Source of the DNA: Saprospiraceae bacterium
GTDB taxonomy: Bacteria > Bacteroidota > Bacteroidia > Chitinophagales > Saprospiraceae
Assembly (NCBI GenBank): GCA_028279185.1
Contig: JANQSS010000004.1
Span: forward strand, 1 to 64,000
Direction of reading: 5' to 3'
DNA: 64,000 nt
In this document: positions 1 through 19,383 of the stretch, piece after piece
Numbering within the stretch: the stretch's first letter is position 1
Layout of the letters: every line of letters starts with the position of its first letter
The notes under the pieces: model-generated
The model's database searches: none
What the model was told of the DNA's origin: nothing
The model's input: the letters and a program-made list of their open reading frames with translations, nothing else
Translations under genes and position numbers: made by a program

Positions 1-48
1 AGTAGCCCAGTAATTCAACTGCGACCCCACGTGACATCTACAGGGCTG

Positions 49-948
49 TTATCCGCCTAACCGCTCCCCGACCATCAGTATTTTCATGGCAAAACCAACA
101 TTTAATCTCTCCAATTCTTCATGCGCGTATATGTGATATTGTCTGACATCAGCTTTACTCTCGAGTAATTGTATTACTCGTTTGTCATTTACTGTCAGGA
201 TTTCAGCTTCGGGCCATGCGGGTAAGGCATGTTGACCCGCTAAGAGGCCAATGTCATTGCCCGTTAAAATAGAAGAATTGCGTATCGACTCAGGAAGTTC
301 GTCATAGCCCACCGCTAGTTTTGTAACGGGTTGGACGATGGTTTGAATGGCTTCTCCCTTTACCCGCACATAGTACGAGCGGCCCAATCGACCCATAAGA
401 TCGAGCTTGTTCGGATCGATTCGATTTCGGTCATCAATTACATGTTCTGCGACATGCATTCGATTTACTTTACATATAACTAAGTGGCCTGCACCGCCAT
501 GTTCTCCCAAGGTAATGATGTCCTGTACTTCACATTCCAAATGCACCGGAGATTCCTTTATACGAAAGGGTTTGACAGTTTGTGATGCCAATTTAGTTAG
601 GCCAGTTTTATCAAATTCACTTACATCACTCGGAAATTCTATTGAAGCAACTGCCATTTGCCGCACTATATCGTAATTCACAATATTGATAACCACTTCT
701 TTATTCAAACGGACGTTGTGAAGGGTGTCTTTTGTAGTATTGTTTGAGACGCGTCGATTTGATGAAAAAACCACAATAGGCGGATTCGAACTGAACGCAT
801 TGAAAAAGCTATAAGGAGCTAAATTTGGCAGACCTTTATCATCTATTGTGCTTACGAAAGCTATCGGGCGGGGCGCGATAGATCCCACTATGAATTGATG
901 TAAGTCACGCGTGGCCACTTCTCCCGGAATAATTGTGCGCATGGACAT
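49..948 (-). CDS. Flavin reductase-like (FMN-binding split barrel) family protein
   Basis: This is probably an FMN-dependent cytoplasmic reductase or flavin-binding protein. The N-terminal half carries the split-barrel pattern GSIAPRPIAFVSTIDDKG followed by APYSFFNAFSSNPP, which is typical of the flavin reductase-like family; the substrate cannot be read from sequence. A C-terminal stretch of about 80 residues lies beyond the barrel. An in-frame extension to 1056 exists, but its 36 extra residues are not family-like. I therefore place the start at the ATG at 948 (or 942, two codons later), giving about 299 aa. It has no close co-directional partner; the next gene upstream starts at 1650. Confidence 0.8.
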   Translation of the reverse strand: MSMRTIIPGEVATRDLHQFIVGSIAPRPIAFVSTIDDKGLPNLAPYSFFNAFSSNPPIVVFSSNRRVSNNTTKDTLHNVRLNKEVVINIVNYDIVRQMAVASIEFPSDVSEFDKTGLTKLASQTVKPFRIKESPVHLECEVQDIITLGEHGGAGHLVICKVNRMHVAEHVIDDRNRIDPNKLDLMGRLGRSYYVRVKGEAIQTIVQPVTKLAVGYDELPESIRNSSILTGNDIGLLAGQHALPAWPEAEILTVNDKRVIQLLESKADVRQYHIYAHEELERLNVGFAMKILMVGERLGG

Positions 949-1100
949 GTACGTCGGATTTTGATTGTGTCCACGAAGATATACCTTGTTTAGCACTGGA
1001 GTAAAACCCCGATGTAATTTGAAAATTACATTTTCTATCCGTTGCCTACAAAGCATCCGGATACGAAACCGACATTTTATTTATGAACCCGGCGAATATG

Positions 1101-1127
1101 AAAAAGGCCCGACAAATTGCCGAGCCT
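1101..1127 (-). terminator. Putative intrinsic terminator of the 1156-1650 gene
   Basis: Read on the minus strand, this is an imperfect 10-bp stem (AGGCTCGGCA pairing with TGTCGGGCCT, two mismatches, 3-nt loop) followed directly by five T residues. It sits just past the stop codon of the thioredoxin-like gene at 1156. Confidence 0.55.
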
Positions 1128-1155
1128 ATCATTATATGATGTTATTTGGATTTTA

Positions 1156-1650
1156 TCAGCTTCGTTTAGACCGCGCTATCATATCATTGATATCGGTAGT
1201 AAACTCTCGCACGGTACCCTTATAGCCTGTCTTACCCATTGCATTGATGGAGTATCGATTGTTTTCGTCTTTATCCAGGTCAAACACCCAAATAGTAGGA
1301 AAGCCACGAACTTTGAATGCTTGTTGCAGGTCAGCATTTTGCTTTTTGATGTCAGAAGGAACTTTGAATCGTCTAGGGTAGTCCAGTTCCAGCAGAACAA
1401 CATTTTCTGATGCCCAGGTCTTGAATTCATCCTTATTAAAAACGGCCGCTGAAAGTTTTTTACACCATCCGCACCAGTCACTTCCAGTGAAATTAGCCAT
1501 GATAGGTTTGCCCGTGCGTTTTGACTCTTCATACGCTTTATCGAGGTTTACCATCCAACCATCTTGATGTGCTTTATACTCAGCCTGCGCCTGTACCATA
1601 AACGTGGCGAACAATATAGGCAGACAATAAAGTAGATTTCTCATTGACAT
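1156..1650 (-). CDS. Secreted thioredoxin-family protein (WCGWC motif)
   Basis: This is a 164-aa protein with an N-terminal signal peptide (about residues 1-23, ending QAQA), so it probably acts in the periplasm. The redox motif is W59-C60-G61-W62-C63-K64-K65-L66. A GFPT segment supplies the expected cis-proline. The WCGWC form is common in Bacteroidota thioredoxin-like proteins related to the Thioredoxin_7/DUF255 groups and differs from the WCGPC of classical TrxA, encoded next door at 1829. A disulfide reductase or isomerase role for exported proteins is inferred; the partner is unknown. It stands as its own transcription unit, with a likely terminator at 1101-1127. Confidence 0.85.
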   Translation of the reverse strand: MSMRNLLYCLPILFATFMVQAQAEYKAHQDGWMVNLDKAYEESKRTGKPIMANFTGSDWCGWCKKLSAAVFNKDEFKTWASENVVLLELDYPRRFKVPSDIKKQNADLQQAFKVRGFPTIWVFDLDKDENNRYSINAMGKTGYKGTVREFTTDINDMIARSKRS

Positions 1651-1781
1651 GATTTTTGTTTAGACATAGAAACACAGATTCAGCAATTTGAAGTTCACGA
1701 TAAACCTGCTTTTCAAGCCACAAGATAAGCCCCTTTTAACTTTCGGTGGTCATAAGGATTGGTTAAAAGTAGGTTAAAAGC

Positions 1782-1814
1782 GTTAAGTTGAAGGCCCGTG
1801 ACCTTCAACTTAAC
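1782..1814 (-). terminator. Strong hairpin downstream of trxA, likely terminator
   Basis: This is a perfect 13-bp inverted repeat (GTTAAGTTGAAGG and its complement) with a 7-nt loop. On the minus strand it is followed by GCTTTTAACC. It lies 14 bases past the end of trxA. The T-tract is weak, but the stem is long and perfect. Confidence 0.6.
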
Positions 1815-1828
1815 CATGACGATCTTGC

Positions 1829-2149
1829 TTAATTGCTAATCAACTTCTCCAGATTTGAGGACAATGTTGATTTATTTTGGACCCCATTTTGCTTGCCAAC
1901 GACTTGACCATTTTTAAAATAAAACAGGGCAGGAATACTGCGAACTCCGAATTGCTCTGAAAGTTCTGGGCTAGAATCGACATTGACCTTAGAGATGATG
2001 GCTCGTCCATCAAAATCTTCTGCTAGCGCTTCAAGCGTCGGGTGCAAAGATTTGCAAGGGCCGCACCATTCTGCGTAAAAATCGACGAGTACGATTTCGT
2101 TATTTTGAATTGTCTCTTGAAAATTGGACTGATCAACTTGCTTTATCAT
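1829..2149 (-). CDS. trxA: Thioredoxin
   Basis: This is a 106-aa cytoplasmic thioredoxin of normal family length. The active site W28-C29-G30-P31-C32-K33 and the later SIPALFYF segment with the cis-proline are intact. It acts as a general protein disulfide reductase, receiving electrons from thioredoxin reductase, which is not in this window. It is 25 nt downstream of the AhpD-like gene on the same strand, so the two are probably co-transcribed. That suggests this thioredoxin serves the neighbouring CxxC protein or a shared stress response. This may be an accessory thioredoxin and not the only one in the genome. Confidence 0.92.
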   Translation of the reverse strand: MIKQVDQSNFQETIQNNEIVLVDFYAEWCGPCKSLHPTLEALAEDFDGRAIISKVNVDSSPELSEQFGVRSIPALFYFKNGQVVGKQNGVQNKSTLSSNLEKLISN

Positions 2150-2174
2150 GATTTGCGGTTTTAATGGTTAAAAA

Positions 2175-2708
2175 TTAAAGTTCTGGCGCGATTGGAAAAT
2201 CGATTTCAAAGCCAGCCAAATTGTGGATATAGTTGCTTATGATTTTATCACCTATTACCATAATAATATCGATCATATTTGCCTCAGTATATCCAGCCTC
2301 AAACAGTGCCACCTTAACACCTGCGCTAACGTTTCCACGGTTTTTCACGACCTCTTTGGCAAACTTTACCAGTGCATCAAGTTTTGGGTCAAATGATGCG
2401 CTTCCTTCGCGTAATTCGATTATTTGCTCATCAGAAAATCCATTCATTTTACCAAGCACGGTATGGGCGGATTGACAATAACGACATCCATTGACCTGGC
2501 TCGTAATAAGATTAATAACTTCTCGTTCTTTTGCTTTCAGCGTTGATTTTCGATTTTGCAGTGCGAGGTAGTCACCAAGAGCAGTATCGTTTTTAGCGAA
2601 AAATGCATATAGATTAGGTACGAAACCAAGCCCTTTTTCAAGTTGGTTAAAGATTGCCTGGTTATTTTCAGATACTTGCTCTTTTACCGGAATTTCAAAT
2701 GTTGTCAT
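2175..2708 (-). CDS. Carboxymuconolactone decarboxylase / AhpD-like family protein
   Basis: This is a 177-aa all-helical protein of the AhpD/CMD superfamily. The redox motif C75-R-Y-C78-Q-S-A-H82 matches the CxxC...H proton-relay signature of peroxidase-associated members, so an alkylhydroperoxidase-like or thiol-dependent role is more likely than lactone decarboxylation. Residues about 60-150 form the core repeat. It is followed after 25 nt by trxA and preceded, 109 nt upstream, by an AraC-family gene on the same strand. That arrangement suggests a regulated peroxide or electrophile response unit. The exact substrate is unknown. Confidence 0.85.
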   Translation of the reverse strand: MTTFEIPVKEQVSENNQAIFNQLEKGLGFVPNLYAFFAKNDTALGDYLALQNRKSTLKAKEREVINLITSQVNGCRYCQSAHTVLGKMNGFSDEQIIELREGSASFDPKLDALVKFAKEVVKNRGNVSAGVKVALFEAGYTEANMIDIIMVIGDKIISNYIHNLAGFEIDFPIAPEL

Positions 2709-2817
2709 TGTCTTTTAATTTTTAGATAGTTATTTAATGATTATTGACAATGCAAATATGAAGGCAGAACTCACACGATTTGTAGACTACTATTCCCGAA
2801 GTATTGGCAATTGTTCC

Positions 2818-3642
2818 CTAATGGACTAAGTTCTTGTACCTACTAGGTGGAAGGCCTTCCATTTTCTTGAAAAACCGACTGAAAGATTGTACATCATCGA
2901 AGCCAATATCGAAGGCAATTTCGTTAATGCTCATATCACTGTATTGAAGGAGTCGCTTTGCTTCCAGAAGCCTTCGTTCTTTTATATACTGAAGTGGTGT
3001 CTTGTCGGACAGTTTAGAAAATAGATTTGATAAGGTCTTTGGAGATTTGTTTAACATCATCGCATAATCAGATACGGCGTGTTTTTCTTTGAAATGTTGT
3101 TCAACTAGGAAATTATATTCTCTTATTATGTCAATCTGTCCAGATCCCATTTGATCATAGTGATGTTGATTTTTATAGGTTCGCGTACAAAGTATCATGA
3201 AGCGCTTGAGCATTGACTGGAGCATTTCCAGTTGTAGTTTGTCCGTAGATTGCATTTCCATTTCAAACATCTTCCAAATCGTTTCAAATACCTCAAGTGA
3301 GCCATTTGGAATTGTGAAACGAGGCAGCTGAGAGGCTCCAAAAAATAAGATGCCCTTACAACCGACTTCACTATCATGATCTTTAATGCAATAAAACTGC
3401 CGATTAAACCGAATCATTTTTGCTTTACACAGACCTTCCATAGAGGCGTTGTGAAATTCTGTTAGACATACAATATCGTTGACGCTAAAAGTATATTCAA
3501 CGGAATCTACCGTCATTTTACTTTGTTCTTGAAACCACAAAAAGGTGAGCACACTATCCATCGGTTCCGTCTGCTTCAAGCAATTGGTTCCATGAATAGG
3601 TTTTATGTCTAAATATTCTTCAGCCTTGCCTTTATAAATCAT
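2818..3642 (-). CDS. AraC-family transcriptional regulator
   Basis: This is a 274-aa protein. Residues about 1-110 fit the AraC cupin-like sensor domain, and about 170-272 form the double helix-turn-helix DNA-binding domain. The second helix-turn-helix contains MSINEIAFDIGFDDVQSFSR followed by FFKK, the classical AraC signature. The inducer is not recognisable. It lies directly upstream of the CMD/trxA pair on the same strand, so those genes are the first candidates for its targets. Confidence 0.9.
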   Translation of the reverse strand: MIYKGKAEEYLDIKPIHGTNCLKQTEPMDSVLTFLWFQEQSKMTVDSVEYTFSVNDIVCLTEFHNASMEGLCKAKMIRFNRQFYCIKDHDSEVGCKGILFFGASQLPRFTIPNGSLEVFETIWKMFEMEMQSTDKLQLEMLQSMLKRFMILCTRTYKNQHHYDQMGSGQIDIIREYNFLVEQHFKEKHAVSDYAMMLNKSPKTLSNLFSKLSDKTPLQYIKERRLLEAKRLLQYSDMSINEIAFDIGFDDVQSFSRFFKKMEGLPPSRYKNLVH

Positions 3643-3826
3643 CTATTTGTATGTTAACAGGATGGATAACCCGTTAGCAACGGTCACAGGTGTAAACTAC
3701 TAATGGCAGATATTGTTCTCTCCGTTTTGAACGAAATTGATGATTCAGCTGGTGTGCGGGTCATAGCGTAGGTTGTAATGCTGTGAATCCAAATAGTTTA
3801 TCAAAGTCTCGGTTTTATCCTCACGC

Positions 3827-4636
3827 CTAATTTTTCTTTCGTTCAAGCAACAAGCTTGCCGACTGGGCCTCTTCATTGGATTCTAAAAATATAAGATTCC
3901 ATGGAATGTATTTAAGTTTTACTTCACGTTCCTCTTCTCCAAGGAAAAATCCATGACCTTCCATATCTACATTTGGACCATGCGCTCCATGCCGAACATA
4001 CTCCACTGACAATTTTATTCCATCATGTCCATAATGCAAGCACTTGAATGTCATGGAATAAAGAAACTTACGCTCGCCAAATATCTTTTTGTCTAATTTT
4101 GTCGTCTCACCTTCAATATCTACTCTAATAATATTTTTAGGATCGCAAATTGTTTCAATTATTTCATTGCATACATACTCCAATCCGTCTTTTGAATTAG
4201 AATAACTGATACATCGAAACTGATTTACGTCGAACGGTATGGATTCGACATCCTGTGATATCAGTATTACTTTGTCAATGTCTTTGATGCAATGGGCTAA
4301 ACCCAATTCATAAAAGACATTCGCATTCGCGCCTGTAAGATCGACGATAATATATTCGGATTCAGCAATTCCGGCCAATATGGTGTTGATAATATGTGGT
4401 TCCTTGAAGTCGTCCCCACGCCGGCATTCAAAATTCAATGGCTGAGCTTCCAGGGCATGTTTAATAGCTATATGTACTTCATCAAACTGAGCTGCAAATG
4501 GCATTATAATAAATGCTGAGGTACGCTTAATATCAACATTGTTATTGAAATACGCTTTTGGATATAAGGAGGCCATGTGTATGGAGTTGGTATTGTTATA
4601 AACTGGGGTTGTGTCAACTGTTCTTTCGTAATGCAT
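3827..4636 (-). CDS. Nucleoside 2-deoxyribosyltransferase/TIR-like domain protein with unknown C-terminal domain
   Basis: Residues about 38-150 show the fold signature of the nucleoside 2-deoxyribosyltransferase-like branch of the NDT/TIR/SLOG superfamily: AFIIMPF at 41-47, GDDF at 74-77, and DLTGANANVFYELGLAH at 99-115. Glu110 occupies the position of the catalytic glutamate in that family. Related proteins act on nucleotides or NAD, often in immunity or stress, but no activity can be assigned here. The C-terminal 110 residues (from about 157) are unrecognised and look beta-rich with a charged tail. The start at 4636 lies inside the preceding gene (23-nt overlap); an internal Met at 4576 is the alternative. 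No signal peptide or membrane segment is seen. Confidence 0.65.
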   Translation of the reverse strand: MHYERTVDTTPVYNNTNSIHMASLYPKAYFNNNVDIKRTSAFIIMPFAAQFDEVHIAIKHALEAQPLNFECRRGDDFKEPHIINTILAGIAESEYIIVDLTGANANVFYELGLAHCIKDIDKVILISQDVESIPFDVNQFRCISYSNSKDGLEYVCNEIIETICDPKNIIRVDIEGETTKLDKKIFGERKFLYSMTFKCLHYGHDGIKLSVEYVRHGAHGPNVDMEGHGFFLGEEEREVKLKYIPWNLIFLESNEEAQSASLLLERKKN

Positions 4637-5372
4637 CGATTTTGTCGGAAATCGATCCGCGCTCGCTCATTCTGATAATAAAAAAAAGAAATCGAACGAC
4701 AGCACCTTGGGCGATAATTGTGTTAGCCATTTTTCTAATCGTCTCATCACGGTCCTCAATAATCAATTTTTTGGTTGACCTGTCATCTACAGATGAAAGG
4801 GATTTTGCAAACTGCCATGCCTCATCTCGAGCTACCGCCATGCTGAAGTCGATTAAAAAGTTATCGACTTTTTTAAAAAATTTCAAAATACATAACAATT
4901 TCGGCCAAATAGTTGCTAGATTTTCCTGTACTTCATCCACCAAATCTGAAAGAATAGTATTGATCCGATTGAAGTCATCTTTTAAATTGTCGATATTATG
5001 GCCTACCGAAATTTCGTCAGCCGCGATACCCAAGTCCAGATTAATATGTGCGTTCATGCCGAGCAATAAGTGTTGAAGTACGATCAATTTTTTTTGGTTC
5101 GATTGCGTAAAAGTAAATTCCCACGACTTGGTAATGTCATTTTGCTGCGAGAAATCAGTATATGCAGATAAATAACGGTTAGCGAAAATGATATCCAGCT
5201 TCTCCATGCGTTCATCATCATCGAAAAAGTTTTGACCTAGCTTTTCTTTGATCATAATCGTCACCCGTTGATAGATTGCGGCGAAGTAGCCCAGCGCACT
5301 GTTTTCTTGACGGCTTGTCTCGATTATTTTATCCAGATTGTCAATTACTTCATCAATTGTGTTGGCCGTCAT
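4614..5372 (-). CDS. DUF5995-like family protein
   Basis: This is a 252-aa helical, soluble protein. I assign it to the DUF5995 family from memory of the conserved blocks: LDIIFANRYLSAY near residue 62 and LQHLLLGMNAHINLDLGIAA near residues 98-117. Its function is unknown. The conserved His and Asp residues in the MNAHINLDLG block could be catalytic or metal-binding, but that is inference. It overlaps the downstream deoxyribosyltransferase-like gene by 23 nt, so the two are almost certainly translated from one message. A perfect inverted repeat lies 24 nt upstream of its start. Confidence 0.7.
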   Translation of the reverse strand: MTANTIDEVIDNLDKIIETSRQENSALGYFAAIYQRVTIMIKEKLGQNFFDDDERMEKLDIIFANRYLSAYTDFSQQNDITKSWEFTFTQSNQKKLIVLQHLLLGMNAHINLDLGIAADEISVGHNIDNLKDDFNRINTILSDLVDEVQENLATIWPKLLCILKFFKKVDNFLIDFSMAVARDEAWQFAKSLSSVDDRSTKKLIIEDRDETIRKMANTIIAQGAVVRFLFFIIRMSERGSISDKIDALRKNS

Positions 5373-5395
5373 ACATTAAAATCTCTATTGTGTAG

Positions 5396-5415
5396 ATGAA
5401 GCGGTGGCGCTTCAT
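5396..5415 (-). promoter_or_regulatory. Perfect inverted repeat upstream of the DUF5995 operon
   Basis: ATGAAGCG and CGCTTCAT form a perfect 8-bp stem around a GTGG loop, centred about 33 nt upstream of the start codon at 5372. On the plus strand it is followed by TTTTATT, which would look like a terminator, but no plus-strand gene ends here. It may be an operator or 5'-leader hairpin of the minus-strand operon. Confidence 0.4.
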
Positions 5416-5627
5416 TTTTATTCCAACATGCCTATTATATAAAGTGTGTTTGGCAAGCCCAGGTCAACGATTAAGTTCATTTAATTTTAGAAATGTTGAA
5501 CCATGGAGATCCGTTACAGGGAAGAGTCATATACTTTTAGATCAATGAACTCAATCGATTTCGAAGGTACGTCCCGATCAGGAACAATACATAATATATC
5601 TCTCACCTAAAAAGCCAATTGATATAA

Positions 5628-6674
5628 TCACTGAATATTGAAGATATATTCAACCAGCCTATTTCCAATATTGCGATTTCCGGTATCACGAGGATTTTCT
5701 CCTTCACCCGAGTTTGTTTGAATAATTATCGTTAATCCAGATTCCGGAAAGTACCGAATGACACCGTTATGACCCCAATCAACACTACCACGGGACCATA
5801 TCTCCCGACCGAACTCATGATCTGTGATGAACCATCCAAGACCCATGAGACGGTTGTCAATTATTTTGGCTGTGGCTTCGACAATATTGGTTACGGTCGA
5901 TGGTTCAAAAAATGAACCATCGAAAATTGCTTCTTTAAAATTGAGTAAATCTCGTGGAGTGCTGAATAAATTTCCTCCACCGATCCATCCCCAGTTTCTA
6001 TATTCATTGTACGGAAATGAGGAAGCCGCTTTATGTTCAGAGGATAAAGATGCTGTGCTGCCAAAAAAGAAGCAATTTGACATGTTCATTTTATCCAAAA
6101 CATTTTTCTGCATGTAATGCTCAAAAGATTCACCACTCGATAATTCGATGATGGCCGCCAGAAGTTGATAGTTGAGCCCGCTGTAGGACCATCCTTTTCC
6201 AGGTGGATAATACAGGGAATCCTGAAAAATGATTTGTACGGCTTCTGTTCTGTCCACAATATCATCGGATGCGTATGTATGTCGAAATCCAGAATTATGC
6301 CATAGTAAATTTCCAATGGTGATGGCAGATTTTTCTTCAGGCACGTCCATAAAGAAATCGGAAATGGCCTGGTTTAATGATAACTCACCTTTTTCAATCA
6401 TCTTAACGATTGCCATAGCAGTCAAAGACTTGGTTATGGAAGCCGCCATAAATATGGTATTAGGAGATGTGATTTCGTCCGATGCGGGGTCCGGTTTGCC
6501 GACATATTCTTCATATACCACCTGCCCATTTTGCTTTATTATGACACCTGCAGCATACCCTTCCTGTACTTCGTCGCGAACGATTTTTCGAAGTTCAATG
6601 GGATCTAGACGAAGAGTTTGAGACAGCCCGGTTTGAACTAGCATGAAAAAAGCGAAGTAGCAGATGGGTTTCAT
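5628..6674 (-). CDS. Serine hydrolase of the beta-lactamase (class C-like) family
   Basis: This is a 348-aa protein with a signal peptide (about 1-18, ending GLSQ), so it is probably periplasmic or outer-membrane facing. It has the S79-I-T-K82 nucleophile motif of penicillin-binding/beta-lactamase-like hydrolases. Tyr164 in YSGLNY stands for the YxN motif with the Asn replaced by Gly. HNGVIRYFP near residue 300 acts as the third motif (HxG type). Members include D-aminopeptidases, esterases and PBP-like proteins, so beta-lactam resistance should not be assumed. It appears monocistronic, with 286 nt of empty sequence upstream. Confidence 0.82.
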   Translation of the reverse strand: MKPICYFAFFMLVQTGLSQTLRLDPIELRKIVRDEVQEGYAAGVIIKQNGQVVYEEYVGKPDPASDEITSPNTIFMAASITKSLTAMAIVKMIEKGELSLNQAISDFFMDVPEEKSAITIGNLLWHNSGFRHTYASDDIVDRTEAVQIIFQDSLYYPPGKGWSYSGLNYQLLAAIIELSSGESFEHYMQKNVLDKMNMSNCFFFGSTASLSSEHKAASSFPYNEYRNWGWIGGGNLFSTPRDLLNFKEAIFDGSFFEPSTVTNIVEATAKIIDNRLMGLGWFITDHEFGREIWSRGSVDWGHNGVIRYFPESGLTIIIQTNSGEGENPRDTGNRNIGNRLVEYIFNIQ

Positions 6675-6960
6675 AAAGAAGGACGATTGAATGTGGTTAA
6701 ACGTGGTAATTCAGATTATGTAACGAACCCGCGGTTATGTTATTTTCATCGTTAACAACAGGGTAGTCGAAATTAGTACACACTAAATTTATTGTTTATA
6801 GCCTGACAAACAGTCAAATGAGTTGATGATTCAACAAATGAACAAAATTGACCTACTGTAATCTTCTTTGTTCTCAATAATAAATCATGTATTTGTATGG
6901 CAGGCATAGTTTTTTACAAAAGACTATTATAGATATAAAATGATGCCTAATGTCCGAGGT

Positions 6961-8181
6961 TTAAAAAGTCTGAGTTTCCAACTTATTTGTTACCCCTTTT
7001 AATGCGATGCTCCCAATTGATATTATAACAAGGCATATGATTCCAACAATAATTAAATTCGTCGAATTCATATCAGCAGTACGAATCCAATTGCGTGTAA
7101 TATATGGAAATGTCATGGATGGGATCAATGCGACGCTCATACAGATCGCAAGATACTTTGCATTAGCATATTTTGTAACCACAGAATTAAGCACAGGTGC
7201 AATCATCACCTCTGAAATCCCAAGAAATAAAACAATTACATAAAAAAACGATAAGTGATCGTGAGACGCCATATCAGGAATGTGAAATAAAACACCCAAT
7301 GACAATACACCAAAAATTGATCCTAGCATGAGCTTTGTAAAAGGTGAACTATAATAGAAAGACCAGATGACGAAAAGAATAATGCTCACTATTAAGACTA
7401 TTATGGAGCTCAATGATTGATAAATACTTAGTGGTAACCCGAGAGGATAATGTTTGCTCAATTGCATTTGTAGGTCAATTAATTCCACATTTCCAAAATC
7501 AATTGCAGTTGAAAAAAGAGCGAGAGCAATAGCAGTAGCGCAAATGATTCCTGCTTTTTTATTTGCAAATGAGTGCTTCAAATCGGTTATCTTGGAACTT
7601 TCTTTGGAAAGAAAAATTATGGGTAGAATGGAGAGCATCAGGATAATTCCGCTCAGAATAAATCCAATATTGTAGCCGTAATACTCTCCGACGCGGCCAA
7701 TCGCTACAATACCGATAAAAGCGCCAAGATTAATTATAATATAAAATAAAGTAAATATAGCGTCCAGCTTTTTGGTTCTAGTTAAATATTGCTTACCAAT
7801 ACTTGCAACGATATTCGGAGAATATAATCCGCCCCCCAAGACAATCAGCGCAACTCCGATGTACACTCCAGTAATAGATGGGGTGTATAAGCTGAAAGCA
7901 CCAAAAGATTGAAGAAAGCCTCCCAGGATAATTGCATTTCTGCTTCCAGTAACTAAGTCACCAATAAAGGCACCTATGAATTTTGAAAGTAAAAGAAGGC
8001 TGGCTATCCATCCCAATATTTCCAACGCCTGCGCCGCCTCCATTTTGATAACCTCACCGGTCAGGTGTAAGATAAGTATGGCCCTTAGTCCATAATAGGC
8101 TGCACGTTCGAACAGAGCAGAAATGATGTAAGCAAGAACACGTTTAGGGCAAGGTCTTCGCGCAGGTATGTTTATTCCCAT
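6961..8181 (-). CDS. POT/PTR2-family (MFS) transporter
   Basis: This is a 406-aa protein with about 11-12 hydrophobic segments. FERAAYYGLRAIL at residues 24-36 and FTLFYIIINLGAFIG near residue 145 match the two best-known signatures of proton-dependent oligopeptide transporters (the YYG block and FYxxINLG). The ExxER proton-coupling motif reads A22-L-F-E25-R26, so its first glutamate is absent. It is shorter than usual POT proteins (450 aa or more). A peptide or other small-molecule substrate is inferred only from the family. It is divergent from the secreted peptidase at 8351. Confidence 0.7.
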   Translation of the reverse strand: MGINIPARRPCPKRVLAYIISALFERAAYYGLRAILILHLTGEVIKMEAAQALEILGWIASLLLLSKFIGAFIGDLVTGSRNAIILGGFLQSFGAFSLYTPSITGVYIGVALIVLGGGLYSPNIVASIGKQYLTRTKKLDAIFTLFYIIINLGAFIGIVAIGRVGEYYGYNIGFILSGIILMLSILPIIFLSKESSKITDLKHSFANKKAGIICATAIALALFSTAIDFGNVELIDLQMQLSKHYPLGLPLSIYQSLSSIIVLIVSIILFVIWSFYYSSPFTKLMLGSIFGVLSLGVLFHIPDMASHDHLSFFYVIVLFLGISEVMIAPVLNSVVTKYANAKYLAICMSVALIPSMTFPYITRNWIRTADMNSTNLIIVGIICLVIISIGSIALKGVTNKLETQTF

Positions 8182-8329
8182 TGTTGAATCGAGTGGTAAA
8201 TCTATTGGTCAAACAACATAAACATTTTCAATTACGCAACGAAGTTTTATCGATGTTGTCAGCGGAATGCAAGATAATCCGCATTGAGCCATTTGTAGAA
8301 ACTGATTACATCCTTAGGGTCCTAAACAC

Positions 8330-8337
8330 TATATTTG
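8330..8337 (+). promoter_or_regulatory. Candidate Bacteroidota -7 promoter element
   Basis: TATATTTG matches the Bacteroidota TAnnTTTG -7 consensus and lies 14 nt upstream of the ATG at 8351. I see no good -33 TTTG at the expected spacing. Confidence 0.35.
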
Positions 8338-8350
8338 TGTACTACAACTT

Positions 8351-11020
8351 ATGAAAGCATTACTCCGCTTCTTTTTCCTCCTCATAGGAGGCCTGATATG
8401 CGTCCCTCTTCTCCAGAGTCAAGTTCTCCATTATAGACAAGGTGAGTTGCTTGTAAAATTGAAGCAAGAAAATGACTCTAAGCACTTCTTGGCCAAACTC
8501 AATGCGCGGCGTAATCAATTTCATCTAAACGGCACGAAGCCTGTGGTTCCTGCCATGAATATTCATAAGTTTAGCTTCGATTTTAATAGCATTGATGAAA
8601 CTCAAATGATCGATTATATCGCCTCTCATCCGGAGGTTGAGACTGTTCAATTCAACCATTTGATTAAAAAGCGTCAAACAACTCCAGATGACCCTCGATT
8701 CGATGATCAATGGCAATATATTAATACGGGTCAACTACCTAATGGGGTGATAAATGCAGACCTTGATATCGAGTGGGCTTGGGACGTTACGACTGGTGGT
8801 GTGACTGCCACCGGTGATACGATCGTAGTTTGTGTAATCGATGATGGATTAAATCCGAATCATCAAGACTTTGGGGACAACCTGTGGACTAATCATGGTG
8901 AGATACCGGGCAACAGCATAGATGACGATGGCAATGGTTATGTCGATGATATCCATGGTTATGACATTTTTGATGATGACGGTGACCCGCTGACAATTTT
9001 AAACTTTGATGACCATGGGACCCCGGTTGCCGGTATAATAGGCGCAAAAGGAAATAATGGATCAGGTGTTGCAGGCATTAACTGGAATGTTAAATTGATG
9101 ATAATAAGAGGGTTTGGTGATGAAGAGGAAGCGTTGGCAGCATACAGCTATCCACTCGAAATGCGTCGGATGTATAACCAGACAAATGGTGCACAAGGCG
9201 CATTCGTGGTAGCGACCAATGCTTCTTGGGGCACGGATCAAGGGCAGCCTGAAGATGCCCCCTTATGGTGCGCTATGTACGATTCACTTGGCCTTCAAGG
9301 TGTTCTTAACTGCGGCGCCACGGCAAATAGAAATTTTGATATCGACGTGGTTGGAGACTTACCCACGGCATGCCCAAGTGATTACCTGCTCAGCGTTACA
9401 AATCTTGATGAATCTGATGAAAAAGTTACCCAGGCTGGATATGGACTGACGACCATCGATCTTGGGGCTTACGGAGAGAATACAGAGACAGTGGCTACTC
9501 CAAATGGTTATGAAGGGTTCGGTGGAACATCAGGTGCCACGCCTCATGTAACCGGTGCGGTAGGGCTGTTGTACGCTTCGCCATGTGTGGAATTGGCTAA
9601 TTTAGCTCGTTCGGATCCGCCAGCTGCAGCTCTTCTTGTTCGTTCGGCTATTACTTCCAGCGTTACGCCAAATGCTAGTCTTGACGGAATAACTGTTACT
9701 GGCGGCCGGCTCAATATTAACAATGCCATGCAGTATCTCCTTGGAACATGCGGCCCTTGTCCAAATCTCGTCGGATTGCAAGCGGACCCCGTTGGTATTG
9801 ATAGTCTGGCTGTGTCCTGGAGTTCAAGTGATTCGGCTGTTCAAGCGCATGTGGAATATCGTGAAGTCGGTATGAATGACTGGAATGTAGAAACCTCCGA
9901 AGCCACATTACATTACCTGACCTTATTACCATGCCAGTCTTATGAAATTCGCGTAAAAGCAATTTGTGCCACCGATACGTCAATGTACTCAAATGTCATT
10001 ACGGTAAAAACCGATGGGTGCTGTGATATTCCGCTGGATATTACGACCACAGATGTAAGTGAAGATAATATTAGCCTGGAATGGAACGGCATCGCAGCTG
10101 CTACCGAATATACAGTCCGCTACCGGAGACAGGGAGTGGCGACCTGGGCGGAAATGATGGTTGTAGGAACGCAATTTAATATAGCAACTGACCCGTGTAA
10201 TATTTATGAAATTCAAATTCAATCCATTTGTGCTGATTCGAGTGGAGATTTTTCTGAAAGCCTACTTGTGAGTGTTCCTGGTTGCGGATTTTGTCTCGAT
10301 TTAGATTATTGTGAGCAACCATCGGGAGATTCTGAGTTCGAATACATTAATTCCTTCACCTTTGGAGAATTTATTAATGCGTCAGGTGATAACGGAGGAA
10401 ATGCGGATTTCACCGCATTGGACATTCCCGTTGCAGAGCGTGAGCGAACATATACTGTACAAGTGGTTCCTGGTGCAAATGGCGTTGACCTTGATGAAAA
10501 CTATATACTCTGGATTGATTTTAATGCCGATGGCGAATTTGAAGAGAGCGAGGAAGTTATTCGAGTCGAGTCCACCGACACACTTGGTATTACCGGAGAA
10601 GTGACGATTCCGGAGGATGCGCGAATAGGTGCGACCCGAATGCGCCTTGGAATGCGGTGGCGTTTATATCCAGATCCTTGTGGTCCAACAGGAATTAGCG
10701 GCGAATTTGAAGATTATTGCATTACGATCGATGAAAACTCCGGTGTGATTACGAATGGACCGGATGATTTTATTTTTGATGTATATCCCAATCCAATGGT
10801 CGATCATTTGATTTTCAGGACGAATGATTTTAGTATAGCTGTTGGTCAAATTTCGATATTTAATGAAGCAGGAAAATTGGTTCGTCAACACGCTATCGAT
10901 CTCACACAAAATGATCAACGTAACCTAGATGTGACTGATTTGTCTGCAGGTTTATATTTCGTGCGATATTTGTCTTCTGACGGGAATTTCACAATTACAA
11001 GGAAATTGGTAAAACTGTAA
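8351..11020 (+). CDS. Secreted subtilisin-like (S8) serine peptidase with FnIII, GEVED and T9SS sorting domains
   Basis: This is an 889-aa multi-domain protein. The signal peptide covers about residues 1-23, and an inhibitor-like propeptide extends to about 110. The S8 catalytic domain (about 115-465) has Asp164 in CVIDDG, His222 in DDHGTPVAG and Ser394 in GGTSGATPHVTG. Two fibronectin type III-like repeats follow (about 475-555 and 560-640). A GEVED-type domain ends near GEFEDYCITI (about 790). The C-terminus has the type A T9SS signal (VYPNP through GLYFVRY and RKLVKL). It is therefore probably exported across the outer membrane by T9SS as a surface or secreted protease. It stands alone. 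Confidence 0.93.
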   Translation: MKALLRFFFLLIGGLICVPLLQSQVLHYRQGELLVKLKQENDSKHFLAKLNARRNQFHLNGTKPVVPAMNIHKFSFDFNSIDETQMIDYIASHPEVETVQFNHLIKKRQTTPDDPRFDDQWQYINTGQLPNGVINADLDIEWAWDVTTGGVTATGDTIVVCVIDDGLNPNHQDFGDNLWTNHGEIPGNSIDDDGNGYVDDIHGYDIFDDDGDPLTILNFDDHGTPVAGIIGAKGNNGSGVAGINWNVKLMIIRGFGDEEEALAAYSYPLEMRRMYNQTNGAQGAFVVATNASWGTDQGQPEDAPLWCAMYDSLGLQGVLNCGATANRNFDIDVVGDLPTACPSDYLLSVTNLDESDEKVTQAGYGLTTIDLGAYGENTETVATPNGYEGFGGTSGATPHVTGAVGLLYASPCVELANLARSDPPAAALLVRSAITSSVTPNASLDGITVTGGRLNINNAMQYLLGTCGPCPNLVGLQADPVGIDSLAVSWSSSDSAVQAHVEYREVGMNDWNVETSEATLHYLTLLPCQSYEIRVKAICATDTSMYSNVITVKTDGCCDIPLDITTTDVSEDNISLEWNGIAAATEYTVRYRRQGVATWAEMMVVGTQFNIATDPCNIYEIQIQSICADSSGDFSESLLVSVPGCGFCLDLDYCEQPSGDSEFEYINSFTFGEFINASGDNGGNADFTALDIPVAERERTYTVQVVPGANGVDLDENYILWIDFNADGEFEESEEVIRVESTDTLGITGEVTIPEDARIGATRMRLGMRWRLYPDPCGPTGISGEFEDYCITIDENSGVITNGPDDFIFDVYPNPMVDHLIFRTNDFSIAVGQISIFNEAGKLVRQHAIDLTQNDQRNLDVTDLSAGLYFVRYLSSDGNFTITRKLVKL

Positions 11021-11168
11021 AGCCTGTCAATTTTAATCTCTTAGTTTTCCTACCTTATCCTTTTTTGTTGATTAAGATGGTTCACATCTCATTGTCTTTG
11101 TGCAACAATTCATTTGTTTAATGCAATCCGATGTTCGATTGGCTAAGCCCTATCATGCATGGAATTAT

Positions 11169-11176
11169 TAATTTTG
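11169..11176 (+). promoter_or_regulatory. Candidate -7 promoter element of rlmN
   Basis: TAATTTTG fits TAnnTTTG and lies 10 nt before the ATG at 11187, implying a very short leader. No matching -33 element is obvious. Confidence 0.3.
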
Positions 11177-11186
11177 TCTTGGAATA

Positions 11187-12227
11187 ATGAAACGACTGAA
11201 AGATATACGAACGCTTAATAAGGAAGCTTTGGTAGCTGCTGTCAAGGCAGCCAATCAGTCTTCCTACAGAGCAAACCAAATCGAGGAATGGATGTGGCAA
11301 AAAGGTGTTCAGTCATTTGATGATATGACCAACTTGCCTAAGTCTTTCAGGGATTTAATGAAACGTGATTTTGCATTCTATCCGCCCAAAATTGACACCG
11401 TGCAAAGAAGTAGTGATGGAACGATAAAAATGCGTTTTACTTTATATGACGATTACCGAATTGAAAGCGTATTAATTCCAGTTGAACGAGATGATCGATA
11501 TACAGTATGTGTGTCGTCGCAGGCAGGCTGTAGTTTAAATTGTTCTTTCTGTGCAACAGGAAAAATGGGCCTTTTGCGTCAATTAACTACTGCCGAGATT
11601 GTGGATCAGGTTAGAGGTGTTCAGGCAATATGTCGGGAAACCTATGGAAGGAATATTACCAACGTGGTGTATATGGGAATGGGTGAACCATTATTAAATT
11701 ATCGGCAGGTGCATGAAAGCATTTTCCGATTAACTAATGAAATTGGTTTGGGCATGTCTGCCAAGCGGATCACCATAAGTACGGCCGGTATAGCAAAGAT
11801 GATTCGAAAACTAGCAGACGATGGAATTCGTGTCAATTTGGCCTTGTCGTTGCATGCAGCCAATGATGAAAAACGGAATAAGATAATGCCGATCAATGAG
11901 ACTAATAATTTAAGTACTTTGATGGATGCAATAAAATATTTTTATACGCAAACGCGAAATCGTATATCATATGAGTATATAGCCTTACGCGATTTTAATG
12001 ATGACATTAACGATGCTAAAGAGTTGGTCAAATTGTGTAAATACTTCCCTGTTCGTGTAAATATTATTGAATACAATCCTATAGGTGATGGGCTTTTCGC
12101 GGCTTCTCAAGAAGATAAATTAGATCGTTTTATGGCGTATTTAGCTAAAAATGATGTCGTAGCCACATTGCGTCGAAGTAGAGGCAAAGATATCGACGCC
12201 GCATGCGGACAGCTAGCGAATAATTGA
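11187..12227 (+). CDS. rlmN: 23S rRNA (adenine-2503-C2)/tRNA methyltransferase RlmN
   Basis: This is a 346-aa radical-SAM enzyme that methylates C2 of A2503 in 23S rRNA and A37 in some tRNAs. The radical-SAM cluster motif is C115-S-L-N-C119-S-F-C122. The GMGEPLLNY segment binds SAM, and Cys340 in AACGQL is the mechanistic cysteine near the C-terminus. The length is normal and all key residues are present. It converges with rsmA, another rRNA methyltransferase. Confidence 0.96.
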   Translation: MKRLKDIRTLNKEALVAAVKAANQSSYRANQIEEWMWQKGVQSFDDMTNLPKSFRDLMKRDFAFYPPKIDTVQRSSDGTIKMRFTLYDDYRIESVLIPVERDDRYTVCVSSQAGCSLNCSFCATGKMGLLRQLTTAEIVDQVRGVQAICRETYGRNITNVVYMGMGEPLLNYRQVHESIFRLTNEIGLGMSAKRITISTAGIAKMIRKLADDGIRVNLALSLHAANDEKRNKIMPINETNNLSTLMDAIKYFYTQTRNRISYEYIALRDFNDDINDAKELVKLCKYFPVRVNIIEYNPIGDGLFAASQEDKLDRFMAYLAKNDVVATLRRSRGKDIDAACGQLANN

Positions 12228-12309
12228 TGATATGATGAGCAAAATGTTTATGTTCTACGCTTTATACGTGGTCAGCGTCGTATCCCTTACTGCATAGAGC
12301 GTGCGACGA

Positions 12310-13071
12310 TTATTTAGCCATTTGCACGAGTTCGATAAAGTCTTCGACACTCAATTGTTCTGGGCGTTCTTGAAAAAATTTATGACTTTTAATTGTTTCT
12401 TTAGAAAACATGTGCCCAATCGTGTTTCGCATTTTTTTTCGTCTTTGCCCAAATGCGAGTTTTACTAGTGTTCTATATTTTTTGTAATCGACTTTTGGAA
12501 AATGTTCTTTTCGATTAAGGCGTATCACTGTGGATTTCACTTTTGGCGGTGGGTTAAAGGCGCCTGGGTCTAAATTAAATATGCGTTCGCCGGTATAGAA
12601 AAGTTGAACGAGGGCAGAGATTACGCCATATGTTTTTGAACCCGGTTCGGCGATTAGGCGGTCAGCCAATTCTTTTTGGAACATCCCAATTAGTGCCGGA
12701 CATTGTGCTCGATATTCAATTAATTTAAAAATAATTTGACTTGATATATTGTATGGAAAATTTCCAATAATAATAAATTCATCATCACCACACTGTTCAT
12801 TTAACTCTAGTTTTAGAAAATTTGCATGCACAATCTTTAGATTGGGGTATTGTCCATAGTGATTAAACAAAAAAGGCAGAAGGTGCTTGTCGGCTTCTAC
12901 GGCGATCAATCGTTTGGAATGTGGAAGTAAGTGTTTTGTTAGCGCACCCATTCCCGGGCCTACTTCCACAATTTGTTCAATATTGGGGTGGTCCACTAAC
13001 AAGTCAGCTATACGTTCCGCAGCACCAGGCTCGATGAGAAAATGTTGACCGTATGACTTTCGTGCCTTCAT
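12310..13071 (-). CDS. rsmA: 16S rRNA (adenine1518/1519-N6) dimethyltransferase
   Basis: This is a 253-aa KsgA/RsmA enzyme that dimethylates two adjacent adenines in helix 45 of 16S rRNA late in 30S assembly. The SAM-binding motif I is VEVGPGMGALTKHLL (about residues 35-49), and the catalytic NFPYNISS motif is at about 103-110. The C-terminal helical domain carries FGQRRKKMRNT. It starts 77 nt from, and divergent to, pdxA, so the promoters share that gap; ksgA and pdxA neighbour each other in many bacteria. Confidence 0.96.
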   Translation of the reverse strand: MKARKSYGQHFLIEPGAAERIADLLVDHPNIEQIVEVGPGMGALTKHLLPHSKRLIAVEADKHLLPFLFNHYGQYPNLKIVHANFLKLELNEQCGDDEFIIIGNFPYNISSQIIFKLIEYRAQCPALIGMFQKELADRLIAEPGSKTYGVISALVQLFYTGERIFNLDPGAFNPPPKVKSTVIRLNRKEHFPKVDYKKYRTLVKLAFGQRRKKMRNTIGHMFSKETIKSHKFFQERPEQLSVEDFIELVQMAK

Positions 13072-13147
13072 CAGAGAATTATTGCGTGCAAATTTGCTTA
13101 ATTTGCGCCCATTCTTCGGTGTTAAGCTAAACTATTTTCACAACTCT

Positions 13148-14206
13148 ATGAATAACAAACTTAGAATAGGCATTACAGTAGGTGATTTGAATGGTGTAGG
13201 ACTTGAAGTTGTGCTCAAAGCTTTAAAAAATCCTGCTATATTAAATCATTTCATTCCGATTATATATGCATCGGGAAAGGTGGTTTCTTATCACAAGAAC
13301 ATATTACCCGACACACATTTTCAGTTTCAAAATTTACGTTCCGCAGAGCGACCGTCCTATGATAAAATAAATATCGTCAATTGCTGGCAGGACTCCATTA
13401 ACTTAAACTTGGGTCAGTCGGATAGTAGTATTAGCAAATACGCGATCATCTCGCTGAAGCAAGCAGTACACGATCATAAACAAGGCTTGATTGACTGTAT
13501 TGTAACAGCGCCCATTGATAAAAATAATATGAAAGCGGCTGGCTTTGAGTATCCAGGTCATACGGAATACTTCGGCGATGAATATCAAGGAGATCCCTTG
13601 ATGATCATGGCAACAGACAAACTGAGGGTATCCATTGTGACAGGTCATATCCCATTGGCCGAAGTGGCAGCGGCAATCTCTAAAGCCGCGATTGAGAAGA
13701 AATTACATCAATTTGGTAATGCCCTTGTTCAAGATTTTGGTATTCAGCGACCTACAATCGCCGTATTGGGCTTAAACCCTCATGCAGGTGACAATGGCGT
13801 CCTTGGTCATGAAGAAGAAGAGGTGATACGGCCTGTTGTCATTGAAGCGAAGAAGAAAGGTATCCTGGCTATGGGACCATTCTCGCCGGACGGCTTTTTC
13901 GCGTCTGGAAATTATGCAAAGTATGATGGTGTATTGGCCATGTACCACGATCAAGGGCTCATTCCTTTCAAAACTCTGGCTGAAGGAAGAGGTGTAAACG
14001 TCACGGCTGGATTAGATCTTGTTCGTACCTCGCCCGATCACGGGACCGCTTTTAACATTGCTGGGAATGGTGATGCACGACATCATTCATTCTTGCAAGC
14101 GTTGTATATGGCGAAGGATATTTACGAAAATCGAGATTTGCACAAGTCGCTCATTTCTAACGTATTAGAAAAAACGCCAAAGCCATCAGAAGGAAATAAT
14201 GCGTAG
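13148..14206 (+). CDS. pdxA: 4-hydroxythreonine-4-phosphate dehydrogenase
   Basis: This 352-aa enzyme oxidises 4-phosphohydroxy-L-threonine in the DXP-dependent route to pyridoxal phosphate. The start MNNKLRIGITVGDLNGVG matches the family N-terminus, so the ATG at 13148 is preferred over an in-frame extension to 13082. TAPIDK, the metal-binding PGHTEY segment and YHDQGLIPFK are all present, as is the C-terminal TSPDHGTAF. Divergent from rsmA. Confidence 0.95.
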   Translation: MNNKLRIGITVGDLNGVGLEVVLKALKNPAILNHFIPIIYASGKVVSYHKNILPDTHFQFQNLRSAERPSYDKINIVNCWQDSINLNLGQSDSSISKYAIISLKQAVHDHKQGLIDCIVTAPIDKNNMKAAGFEYPGHTEYFGDEYQGDPLMIMATDKLRVSIVTGHIPLAEVAAAISKAAIEKKLHQFGNALVQDFGIQRPTIAVLGLNPHAGDNGVLGHEEEEVIRPVVIEAKKKGILAMGPFSPDGFFASGNYAKYDGVLAMYHDQGLIPFKTLAEGRGVNVTAGLDLVRTSPDHGTAFNIAGNGDARHHSFLQALYMAKDIYENRDLHKSLISNVLEKTPKPSEGNNA

Positions 14207-14304
14207 GTTCAAAGCATTACCGTAATCATCAGATTGGTTTACTGGTCTTCCGACAGCCCTGGCAGTGCATCTTTATTAATACCAAATATACACAAATAGT
14301 TCAG

Positions 14305-14369
14305 AGGCCTTGTGGCTGTAGTCTTTAGCAGGTGTGAATTACCTCGAGACGAGGAACAACCACTGGCCT
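14305..14369 (+). other. Possible structured RNA or hairpin in the pdxA convergent gap
   Basis: AGGCC at 14305-14309 and GGCCT at 14365-14369 pair, as do GTGG (14312-14315) and CCAC (14360-14363). Inside are two alternative, mutually exclusive helices: AGGT/ACCT (14330-14344) and CCTCG-AGA-CGAGG (14342-14354). It sits between convergent genes. No tRNA consensus is present. It may only be a shared terminator structure, although no T-tract follows. Confidence 0.25.
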
Positions 14370-14397
14370 TATTAATGAAGAAGGTATTTCTCTATTA

Positions 14398-15084
14398 TTA
14401 TTCTTCCTTCTCTTTTTCTTCGCCAGCTGGGTCGCCTTTATCACGGCACAGACTTAGAAAGTAGTCATTTGCTTCTTTGCCCCAATCGGGGTGAATCTCA
14501 GAGGCAGCCTCGAAGGATTCAAATTTTTCCTTAGCCATTTTAAATAAAGGTTCCGCATTCGACTTTCCGCCCCCAAAAGCCTCAGGTGTAAAGAAAATAT
14601 TTTGAGCCTTTAAATAGAGTGGGCGCGGATTTGAGGGATCGGCCTCCATAGCCTGATCAAAAGCCGTATAAGCCATTGGGCTATATTTAGCACCATTTGC
14701 CATTGGATTAATCCAAATGTGGGCTAGATACAAATAGCCTTGAGCGGTGATAACCTCTGAATTATCACCTGCCAATTCTTGTGCCTTTTCAAGCGTTTTT
14801 TTTGCCTGTTCGACATAGTCCTGAACTTTTCCGCCACCGGCTTGCATATCCTTGGAGGCCATCGTTATGTAGCCAATAGTTGAGTAATAAGAAGGTAGCC
14901 ATTCTTCTTTTTCAACATTCGCAATACGCTCCAGCGTATTTATAGCACTTTGGATTTCATCCATAGATGCATTGTAATTTATTTTAGAAATGGTCTCAGT
15001 CATCATATTATTGTATTGCTCTTTTTGGGCGAAGGCAATACTTACAATGAAAATGAAGCTAAAAAACAGTGAGTATTTTTTCAT
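14398..15084 (-). CDS. Secreted TPR-like protein of unknown function
   Basis: This is a 228-aa protein with a clear signal peptide (about 1-20, ending AFAQ). The rest is helical with TPR-like periodicity, for example a segment ending AMEADPSNPRPLYLKAQN near residue 150. The tail is acidic and lysine-rich (EEKEKEE). I recognise no catalytic motif. It lies 110 nt upstream of nothing co-directional except the TonB receptor gene further upstream (17368), so it could be a poorly coupled companion of that gene. The role is unknown; a periplasmic scaffold is the simplest guess. Confidence 0.7.
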   Translation of the reverse strand: MKKYSLFFSFIFIVSIAFAQKEQYNNMMTETISKINYNASMDEIQSAINTLERIANVEKEEWLPSYYSTIGYITMASKDMQAGGGKVQDYVEQAKKTLEKAQELAGDNSEVITAQGYLYLAHIWINPMANGAKYSPMAYTAFDQAMEADPSNPRPLYLKAQNIFFTPEAFGGGKSNAEPLFKMAKEKFESFEAASEIHPDWGKEANDYFLSLCRDKGDPAGEEKEKEE

Positions 15085-15193
15085 CTTAAACTATTTGTGA
15101 TTTGTGAGTATGATTTTATTCTAAAAGGTTATTCCAATATACAGATATTTAGAATCAATTATTGATTCATATAGTTCCATTTTTCACCAATTT

Positions 15194-17368: not shown

Positions 17369-17571
17369 AAAGTGGATATAGATTGAATGACAACTCAAAT
17401 ATGGCTATTTCGTAAAGATCCGAGGACGCTATTTCCGATTAATATAGGTAGAATAACGACAAAAATGATTTTGAAGTTCAGTCTGTAATAAGTGCGACTT
17501 TATCTAAATGAGTTGGACGTAGAAGTAACAAATCAGAACTACCGTTTGAATTCTACCGGACTACTAATGTT

Positions 17572-18192
17572 ATGCAAAATATATACAGAGCTGAATTACT
17601 GGCTGTCGCACTGACTGCGATACTTAAATTTGTTTTTGTGAATTTTTTAGGATGGAAGCTATTTTTCATATTGATGATTATTGCTTGTTGGTGTGTGTAT
17701 GTGTGGCGGCGATCCAGACAAGAAAAAGAGATCTGGGGTCGTTGGGGGCTCAGTAAAAGAAATGCAAAAAAGACAATAATACTATTATTTCCTTATGCCT
17801 TAATTATTGTATTTCTTTTTCTATTATATGCATATTTTAAAAATATTTCGCTATTTAATTGGCATATTATTCCTATATTAATATTGTATCCGATCTGGGG
17901 TCTTATCCAGCAATTTTTGTTAATTGGTTTGGTAGTTGGTAATATGAAACAAATGCCCGCACCGTTTAGCGATAAAATTGTTGTCGTGTGTACGGCAGCC
18001 ATATTATTTGGTCTAATTCATTACCCTTTTCCGTATTTAATGGTTGCGACGACGTTGCTTGCTATTGTCTATGCTCTTTTGTTTATTCGCTACCAAAGTC
18101 TTTGGGCACTAGGTTTGTATCACGGAATACTTGGTGGTCTTTTTTATTTTTATGTGCTTAATCGTGATCCTTGGATAGAAGTATTTGGATGA
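17572..18192 (+). CDS. CPBP-family intramembrane protein with altered catalytic motif
   Basis: This is a 206-aa protein with about six membrane segments. Family motif 2 is seen as FGLIHYPFPY and motif 3 as LYHGILGG, both with the expected histidines. Motif 1, normally EExxxR, reads QQFLLIG (residues near 108), so both glutamates are replaced by glutamine. My recollection is that a QQF-type subgroup of CPBP proteins exists; if so, it may not be a protease. It is followed closely by tgt and the LptF/LptG permease on the same strand, forming a likely operon. Confidence 0.7.
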   Translation: MQNIYRAELLAVALTAILKFVFVNFLGWKLFFILMIIACWCVYVWRRSRQEKEIWGRWGLSKRNAKKTIILLFPYALIIVFLFLLYAYFKNISLFNWHIIPILILYPIWGLIQQFLLIGLVVGNMKQMPAPFSDKIVVVCTAAILFGLIHYPFPYLMVATTLLAIVYALLFIRYQSLWALGLYHGILGGLFYFYVLNRDPWIEVFG

Positions 18193-18223
18193 ATGTTTCA
18201 TACATACGACTATCTTAGCGCTC

Positions 18224-19354: not shown

Positions 19355-19383
19355 AAAAGTAAATATGGAGTAAGATTTTAAGT

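Follow-up and report, generated by a model that had tools for sequence, protein, structure and literature searches.

A predicted two-domain NDT/TIR-like protein with a rare beta-rich tail, most likely adjoining a DUF5995 gene by accident

The effector of Retron-Eco1 is nucleoside deoxyribosyltransferase (NDT)-like. Within the portions of the sources available, Retron-Eco1 is a NAD-hydrolysing defence system (PMC12548924), the TIR–DrHyd–SLOG clade is described as holding conflict-system proteins that act as N-glycosidic enzymes or as sensors (PMC9503650), and DUF4062 (Swarozyc) is reported to be a family of TIR-like NADases active against phages in a preprint indicating that the TIR/NDT-like superfamily still yields new antiphage NADases (PMC13174449). 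Excerpts of two further papers give E104 as the nucleophile of human DNPH1 (PMC10603095) and state that the SfSTING TIR domain uses E84 with N80, plus D110 from the dimer mate (PMC9402430). Here we describe a protein encoded in a window of 64,000 nucleotides (the whole stretch analysed, from a Saprospiraceae bacterium) that joins an NDT/TIR-like domain to a rare beta-rich tail, an architecture that is new within a known superfamily; no description of it was found in the literature searched with limited terms. It has the predicted fold of the DrHyd/NDT superfamily (PF05014 and relatives) and the Glu of YELG, but lacks a PF05014 match and adds its own C-terminal beta domain. It differs from SfSTING in having no recognised STING domain and in matching other folds equally well. 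DUF4062 proteins, as far as the accessible text of the preprint describes them, likewise have a TIR-like domain distantly similar to NDT, a conserved Glu and auxiliary domains, whereas the window protein has no DUF4062 Pfam match and a different C-terminal part. The likeness to Retron-Eco1 is by description only, and the neighbours scanned in Pfam include no reverse transcriptase. With moderate confidence, we read the gene as a single-gene, sporadic NAD or nucleotide N-glycosidase effector controlled by its beta domain, located beside a DUF5995 gene by chance; if so, it would be a small, easily tested addition to the TIR/NDT-like N-glycosidases.

Both reading frames lie on the minus strand as the initial annotation had them: a 252-residue DUF5995 frame at 4614–5372 (protein at 4617..5372) and, downstream, a 269-residue NDT/TIR-like frame at 3827–4636. 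That annotation also had the second protein translated from inside the first gene with a 23-nt overlap, which is true only if the ATG at 4636 is the start; the homologues favour the ATG at 4576. In both full-length homologues, from genome G313 (L039) and Spirosoma luteum (L092), the alignment opens at about residue 24–25 of the reported frame, just past Met21 (MASLYPKAYF, position 4576), the window counterpart of the homologue starts. L039 starts MYAKEFF, with no in-frame start between its preceding stop codon and that Met; the L092 alignment opens at MYPKSLF, and its reading frame extends 51 codons further upstream. An N-terminal-domain relative (L093) reads MDNYKIYPKQF in a frame that is open at the contig edge. 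On these alignments, the gene likely starts at 4576 rather than 4636, and the overlap is probably a start-codon artefact because the homologues align only from just after Met21. The likely coding sequence of the two-domain protein would be 3827..4576 (minus strand; 249 residues), preceded by a 20-codon 5′ extension at 4577..4636 (minus strand) that carries the reported overlap, has no counterpart in the L039 and L092 alignments and is probably untranslated. With the start at 4576, 37 nt separate the DUF5995 stop from the NDT/TIR-like gene and the overlap is gone. Translational coupling through an overlap is disfavoured by the positions at which the homologues begin. No Bacteroidota-type promoter pattern was found near the pair (3 in the window against 3.33 expected by chance), and an Rfam search of window positions 1–20000 gave no match.

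Several lines of evidence support assignment of the downstream product to the NDT/TIR-like (DrHyd-type) superfamily. The signature on which this assignment was originally based, MPF, RxD and DLTGANANVFYELGLAH with Glu110, is present in the translation, and alignment and fold place the domain at about residues 38–165 of the reported frame (4142..4525, minus strand). In an alignment of 76 sequences (the window protein, two full-length homologues and 73 domain relatives), D75, N106, V107, Y109, E110, G112, H115 and D136 are invariant in all 76, and the proposed conservation of the Glu110 pocket is supported. The window protein and its NDT relatives have the motif DLT..N.NV.YELG in common. The Asp of DLT, Asp99, is Asp in 66 of the 76 sequences and Val in L039; column 85 holds Asp in 51/76 and Thr in the window protein. 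The loss of Asp99 in L039, together with the inactive nucleotide-binding members of the TIR–DrHyd–SLOG clade described in the available part of PMC9503650, could point to a non-catalytic nucleotide sensor, but the invariance of Glu110 and the seven other residues argues against this reading, which we consider improbable.

Family models recover the domain to varying degrees. At E≤1, neither Pfam nor NCBIfam has a family that matches the window protein; this includes PF05014 (Nuc_deoxyrib_tr), whose gathering cut-off is not reached. Six of nine scanned relatives score 22.5–27.8 bits against PF05014 (cut-off 28.8) and the other three have no match. In PADLOC the sole match, at E 1.1e-6, is to a model for a TIR effector and is partial, extending over 71 of 388 positions. 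In PHROGs, the N-terminal domain has matches to four families of unknown function (best E 1.7e-20), and a viral library search gave six matches at E≤0.001, the named ones being a CMP hydrolase, a TIR-domain protein or a nucleoside deoxyribosyltransferase. A first single-protein search of genome contigs found no relative of the window protein. In searches of family, order, class and phylum, for which genomes were sampled evenly, the N-terminal domain proved common, with a match in 81 of the 395 phylum genomes; of the phylum matches listed, the window's own is the only one to extend beyond position 186 in the full-length model of 279 positions.

Structure prediction with AlphaFold2 (mean pLDDT 87.2, pTM 0.72) gave a two-domain protein. 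On VIA-align, whose matches span residues 16–145 of this model and so hardly probe the tail for known folds, the model aligns with the SPARTA TIR (Z 14.9, rmsd 2.0, 122 residues aligned), the SfSTING TIR (Z 14.6, rmsd 2.0, 115 residues), MilB (Z 14.3, rmsd 2.0, 119 residues) and DNPH1 (Z 13.9, rmsd 2.5, 115 residues). The N-terminal domain model therefore has a TIR-like fold in a sense that is not specific, as N-glycosidases score equally; the TIR and MilB/DNPH1 scores are effectively tied, so the fold cannot choose between an NADase and a nucleotide N-glycosidase. Apart from gp41 coiled-coil constructs, the only PDB sequences matched by the domain profile are Rcl/DNPH1 chains, all at E≥0.058. 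In these weak profile alignments (E 0.058–0.58), E110 falls on the Glu of YELG and, with the D80A chain 8rpt as the reference for residue numbers, aligns with DNPH1 E104. The residue aligned with the DNPH1 general acid D80 is Ile86, although the alignment is weak and a one-residue shift, to the neighbouring Thr85, is possible. By count, and for spacing only, the invariant N106, E110 and D136 reproduce N80/E84/D110 of SfSTING, with the Asn at −4 and the Asp at +26 from the Glu.

The tie with MilB and DNPH1 (Z 13–14) and the Rcl/DNPH1 profile matches are what a metabolic nucleotide hydrolase of DNPH1/MilB type would give, one that clears modified nucleotides and whose beta domain helps to select substrates or to assemble the protein. 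Ile86 rather than Asp at the position that the weak alignment gives for D80, with Thr85 next to it, speaks against such an enzyme, as do the rare, scattered and divergent copies of the gene, which are unlike housekeeping, and we regard it as unlikely. In the effector reading, the second gene product would be a self-contained two-domain protein whose N-terminal Rossmann-like domain acts as an N-glycosidase, using Glu110 to attack the glycosidic bond in NAD+ or in a nucleotide; Asp136 may contribute to the pocket of a dimer mate and so complete it. The C-terminal domain would serve to detect a trigger or to regulate oligomerisation. Such a protein would most likely be used as a single-gene conflict or stress effector that depletes NAD+ or nucleotides, with the upstream DUF5995 protein lying outside the effector.

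Even at E≤10, Pfam yields nothing for the C-terminal domain, which the initial annotation called unrecognised. This tail, at about residues 165–269 of the reported frame, is predicted to be beta-rich with nine strands (block pLDDT 73–89, AlphaFold2); the modelled domain of about 105 residues is encoded at 3830..4144 (minus strand), and its accepted matches so far are L039 and L092. A profile built from the three known copies (window, L039 and L092) has a sole PDB match at E 0.45. Among class genomes, it matches 2 of 325, the window's own and a doubtful one in G1103 (E 8.7e-4), and in the family around G899 it matches 2 of 150, G1447 and a doubtful G1408 (E 0.0081). The G1447 gene (L366) is identical to L092 across the stretch compared. 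G1447 is in the same class as the window, which therefore falls with Spirosoma in the Bacteroidota. The doubtful matches were not accepted; the frames that hold them have 1437 codons (G1103) and 1239 codons (G1408). Among 328 loci of NDT relatives, the tail profile has four matches that represent two distinct genes. Longer matches in G322 and G220, which reach residues 195 and 183, were also rejected: beyond residue 165 they continue only across stop codons, and the tail profile matches neither locus. The matches from the viral library (E≤0.001) offered no clue to the tail, and phage relatives were rejected as its source: the Staphylococcus phage SA13 protein aligns with L092 at 33% over 133 positions, in the N-terminal domain, and other segments are at chance level.

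The same full architecture occurs in two other genomes, among different neighbours. L039 shares 31% identity over residues 23–255 and comes from another family of the same order; L092 shares 34% over 235 positions (BLASTP). The G313 locus contains RibD_C, NDT and S1/P1 nuclease genes, and the S. luteum locus has unannotated neighbours. In G313 (locus L039, 1008–1451), the RibD_C gene is followed by a second NDT-family gene, which scores 37.9 bits against PF05014, and then by the full-length homologue. At most about 0.7 kb separates the end of the S. luteum copy (L092; L366 in G1447) from the edge of its contig. Other relatives attach different accessory parts to their domain, including TPR-S (L005) and TIR (L046). 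Given that relatives bear other parts beside the same domain, the tail is one of several accessory modules on a common domain, and a rare one. By eye, two relatives from the window's family (L045, 499–1965; L003, 739–1872) carry the NDT-like domain C-terminal to a region apparently common to both, and the N-terminal part of L045 looks TIR-like. An Anaerolineales locus (L104, 3422–5423) holds two consecutive NDT-like genes, each of whose products has a part N-terminal to the domain.

The two genes had been proposed, with reservations, as a two-part sensor/effector unit, a proposal that their separation in most relatives would undermine; they are in fact found apart. Searching with profiles, we found no NDT-like neighbour at any of 29 DUF5995 loci of the window's family (window excluded) and no DUF5995 neighbour at any of the 328 NDT loci (duplicates included), and neither the L039 nor the L092 locus has a DUF5995 match. 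The 29 derive from 45 places, 30 of which had a locus, the window's own included; the other 15 lie outside the neighbour count. Flanks of the DUF5995 loci measured at most 1.5 kb, two loci excepted, and the genes downstream of them are diverse. The NDT loci include the best 80 of 383 relatives on genome contigs and the best 80 of 176 and 80 of 177 on viral contigs; the two viral sets overlap, and a single gene accounts for L039, L061 and L363. Of the family's 150 genomes, 40 have a DUF5995 match and 8 an NDT-like one; besides the window's genome, which has one match for each protein, three of the 150 hold both, on separate contigs. A conserved pair is rejected on these locus counts and on this distribution. 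A lineage-specific two-gene sensor/effector unit would fit the common strand and the 37-nt gap or 23-nt overlap, and the window's genus is represented by a single genome, so that the comparison lies outside the genus; set against 0/29 and 0/328 loci and the two unpaired full-length homologues, it is very improbable. Most likely, the two genes adjoin by accident.

A location in a defence island, also raised for this pair, is not borne out: six neighbouring window proteins gave one PADLOC match, to a generic subtilase. Pfam assigns the window neighbours to flavin reductase, thioredoxin-like, CMD-family, AraC, beta-lactamase-like, POT/MFS and subtilase families, which look like housekeeping rather than a defence island. 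By eye, the G313 gene list around L039 shows no obvious defence gene (Pfam scans covered three neighbours there, PADLOC scans two). A PADLOC scan of genes near NDT relatives covered 95 of 132 listed proteins (two were dropped as NDT genes and 35 left out). Among the best 25 of 104 PADLOC families are Type II/III methyltransferases, PDC-S06, PDC-S66 and mads_3, each of the 25 matching one or two of the 95 proteins. DUF5995 neighbours, which are shorter proteins from shorter flanks, gave no PADLOC match in 39; these controls total 9,020 residues against 41,870 for the 132, which lowers the chance of a match. The contrast is only suggestive because the two sets are unlike in taxonomy, in the length of their flanks and in the size of their proteins.

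Taken together, the invariant residues, the fold matches, the weak profile placement of E110 on the YELG Glu, the SfSTING-like spacing, the homologues in other contexts, the lack of pairing and the candidate defence genes near relatives count for the effector reading. Against it count the housekeeping neighbourhood, the lack of an obvious defence gene in G313, the Val of L039 in place of Asp99, Thr85/Ile86 in the window protein, the partial nature of the PADLOC match and the failure of the fold matches to tell an NADase from a nucleotide hydrolase. A stand-alone immune NADase, with the C-terminal beta domain as a sensor of phage or damage, would amount to an undescribed one-gene abortive-infection architecture scattered in Bacteroidota; we put this forward tentatively, as a possibility that is somewhat doubtful.

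The upstream gene does encode a DUF5995 protein, as annotated: residues 6–221 match PF19458 over 1–224/225 at E 4e-73 and 245.8 bits, above the gathering cut-off of 27. The model is all-alpha with ten helices (pLDDT 93.2); Foldseek gave no PDB match at E≤0.001 and the best VIA-align Z is 5.6, weak fold matches that do not show its fold as new. A match to Lart1 ADP-ribosyltransferase, which scores 17.1 bits where the cut-off is 500, was taken as chance. The residues invariant in 30 DUF5995 sequences include Q100, H101, N107, H109, D113, R182 and W186, and from sequence conservation this set looks like a putative enzyme or metal site. In the literature searched, the only paper found to name DUF5995, in its available part, lists it as an uncharacterised orf of the irumamycin cluster (PMC11672594). 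The present evidence gives no ground for listing DUF5995 among defence partners, which removes a misleading candidate.

Relatives of the NDT/TIR-like domain are also carried by temperate phages. In Streptococcus phage Javan37, the gene lies among lysogeny-control genes, and the Staphylococcus phage SA13 relative sits within a group of replication genes but on the opposite strand.
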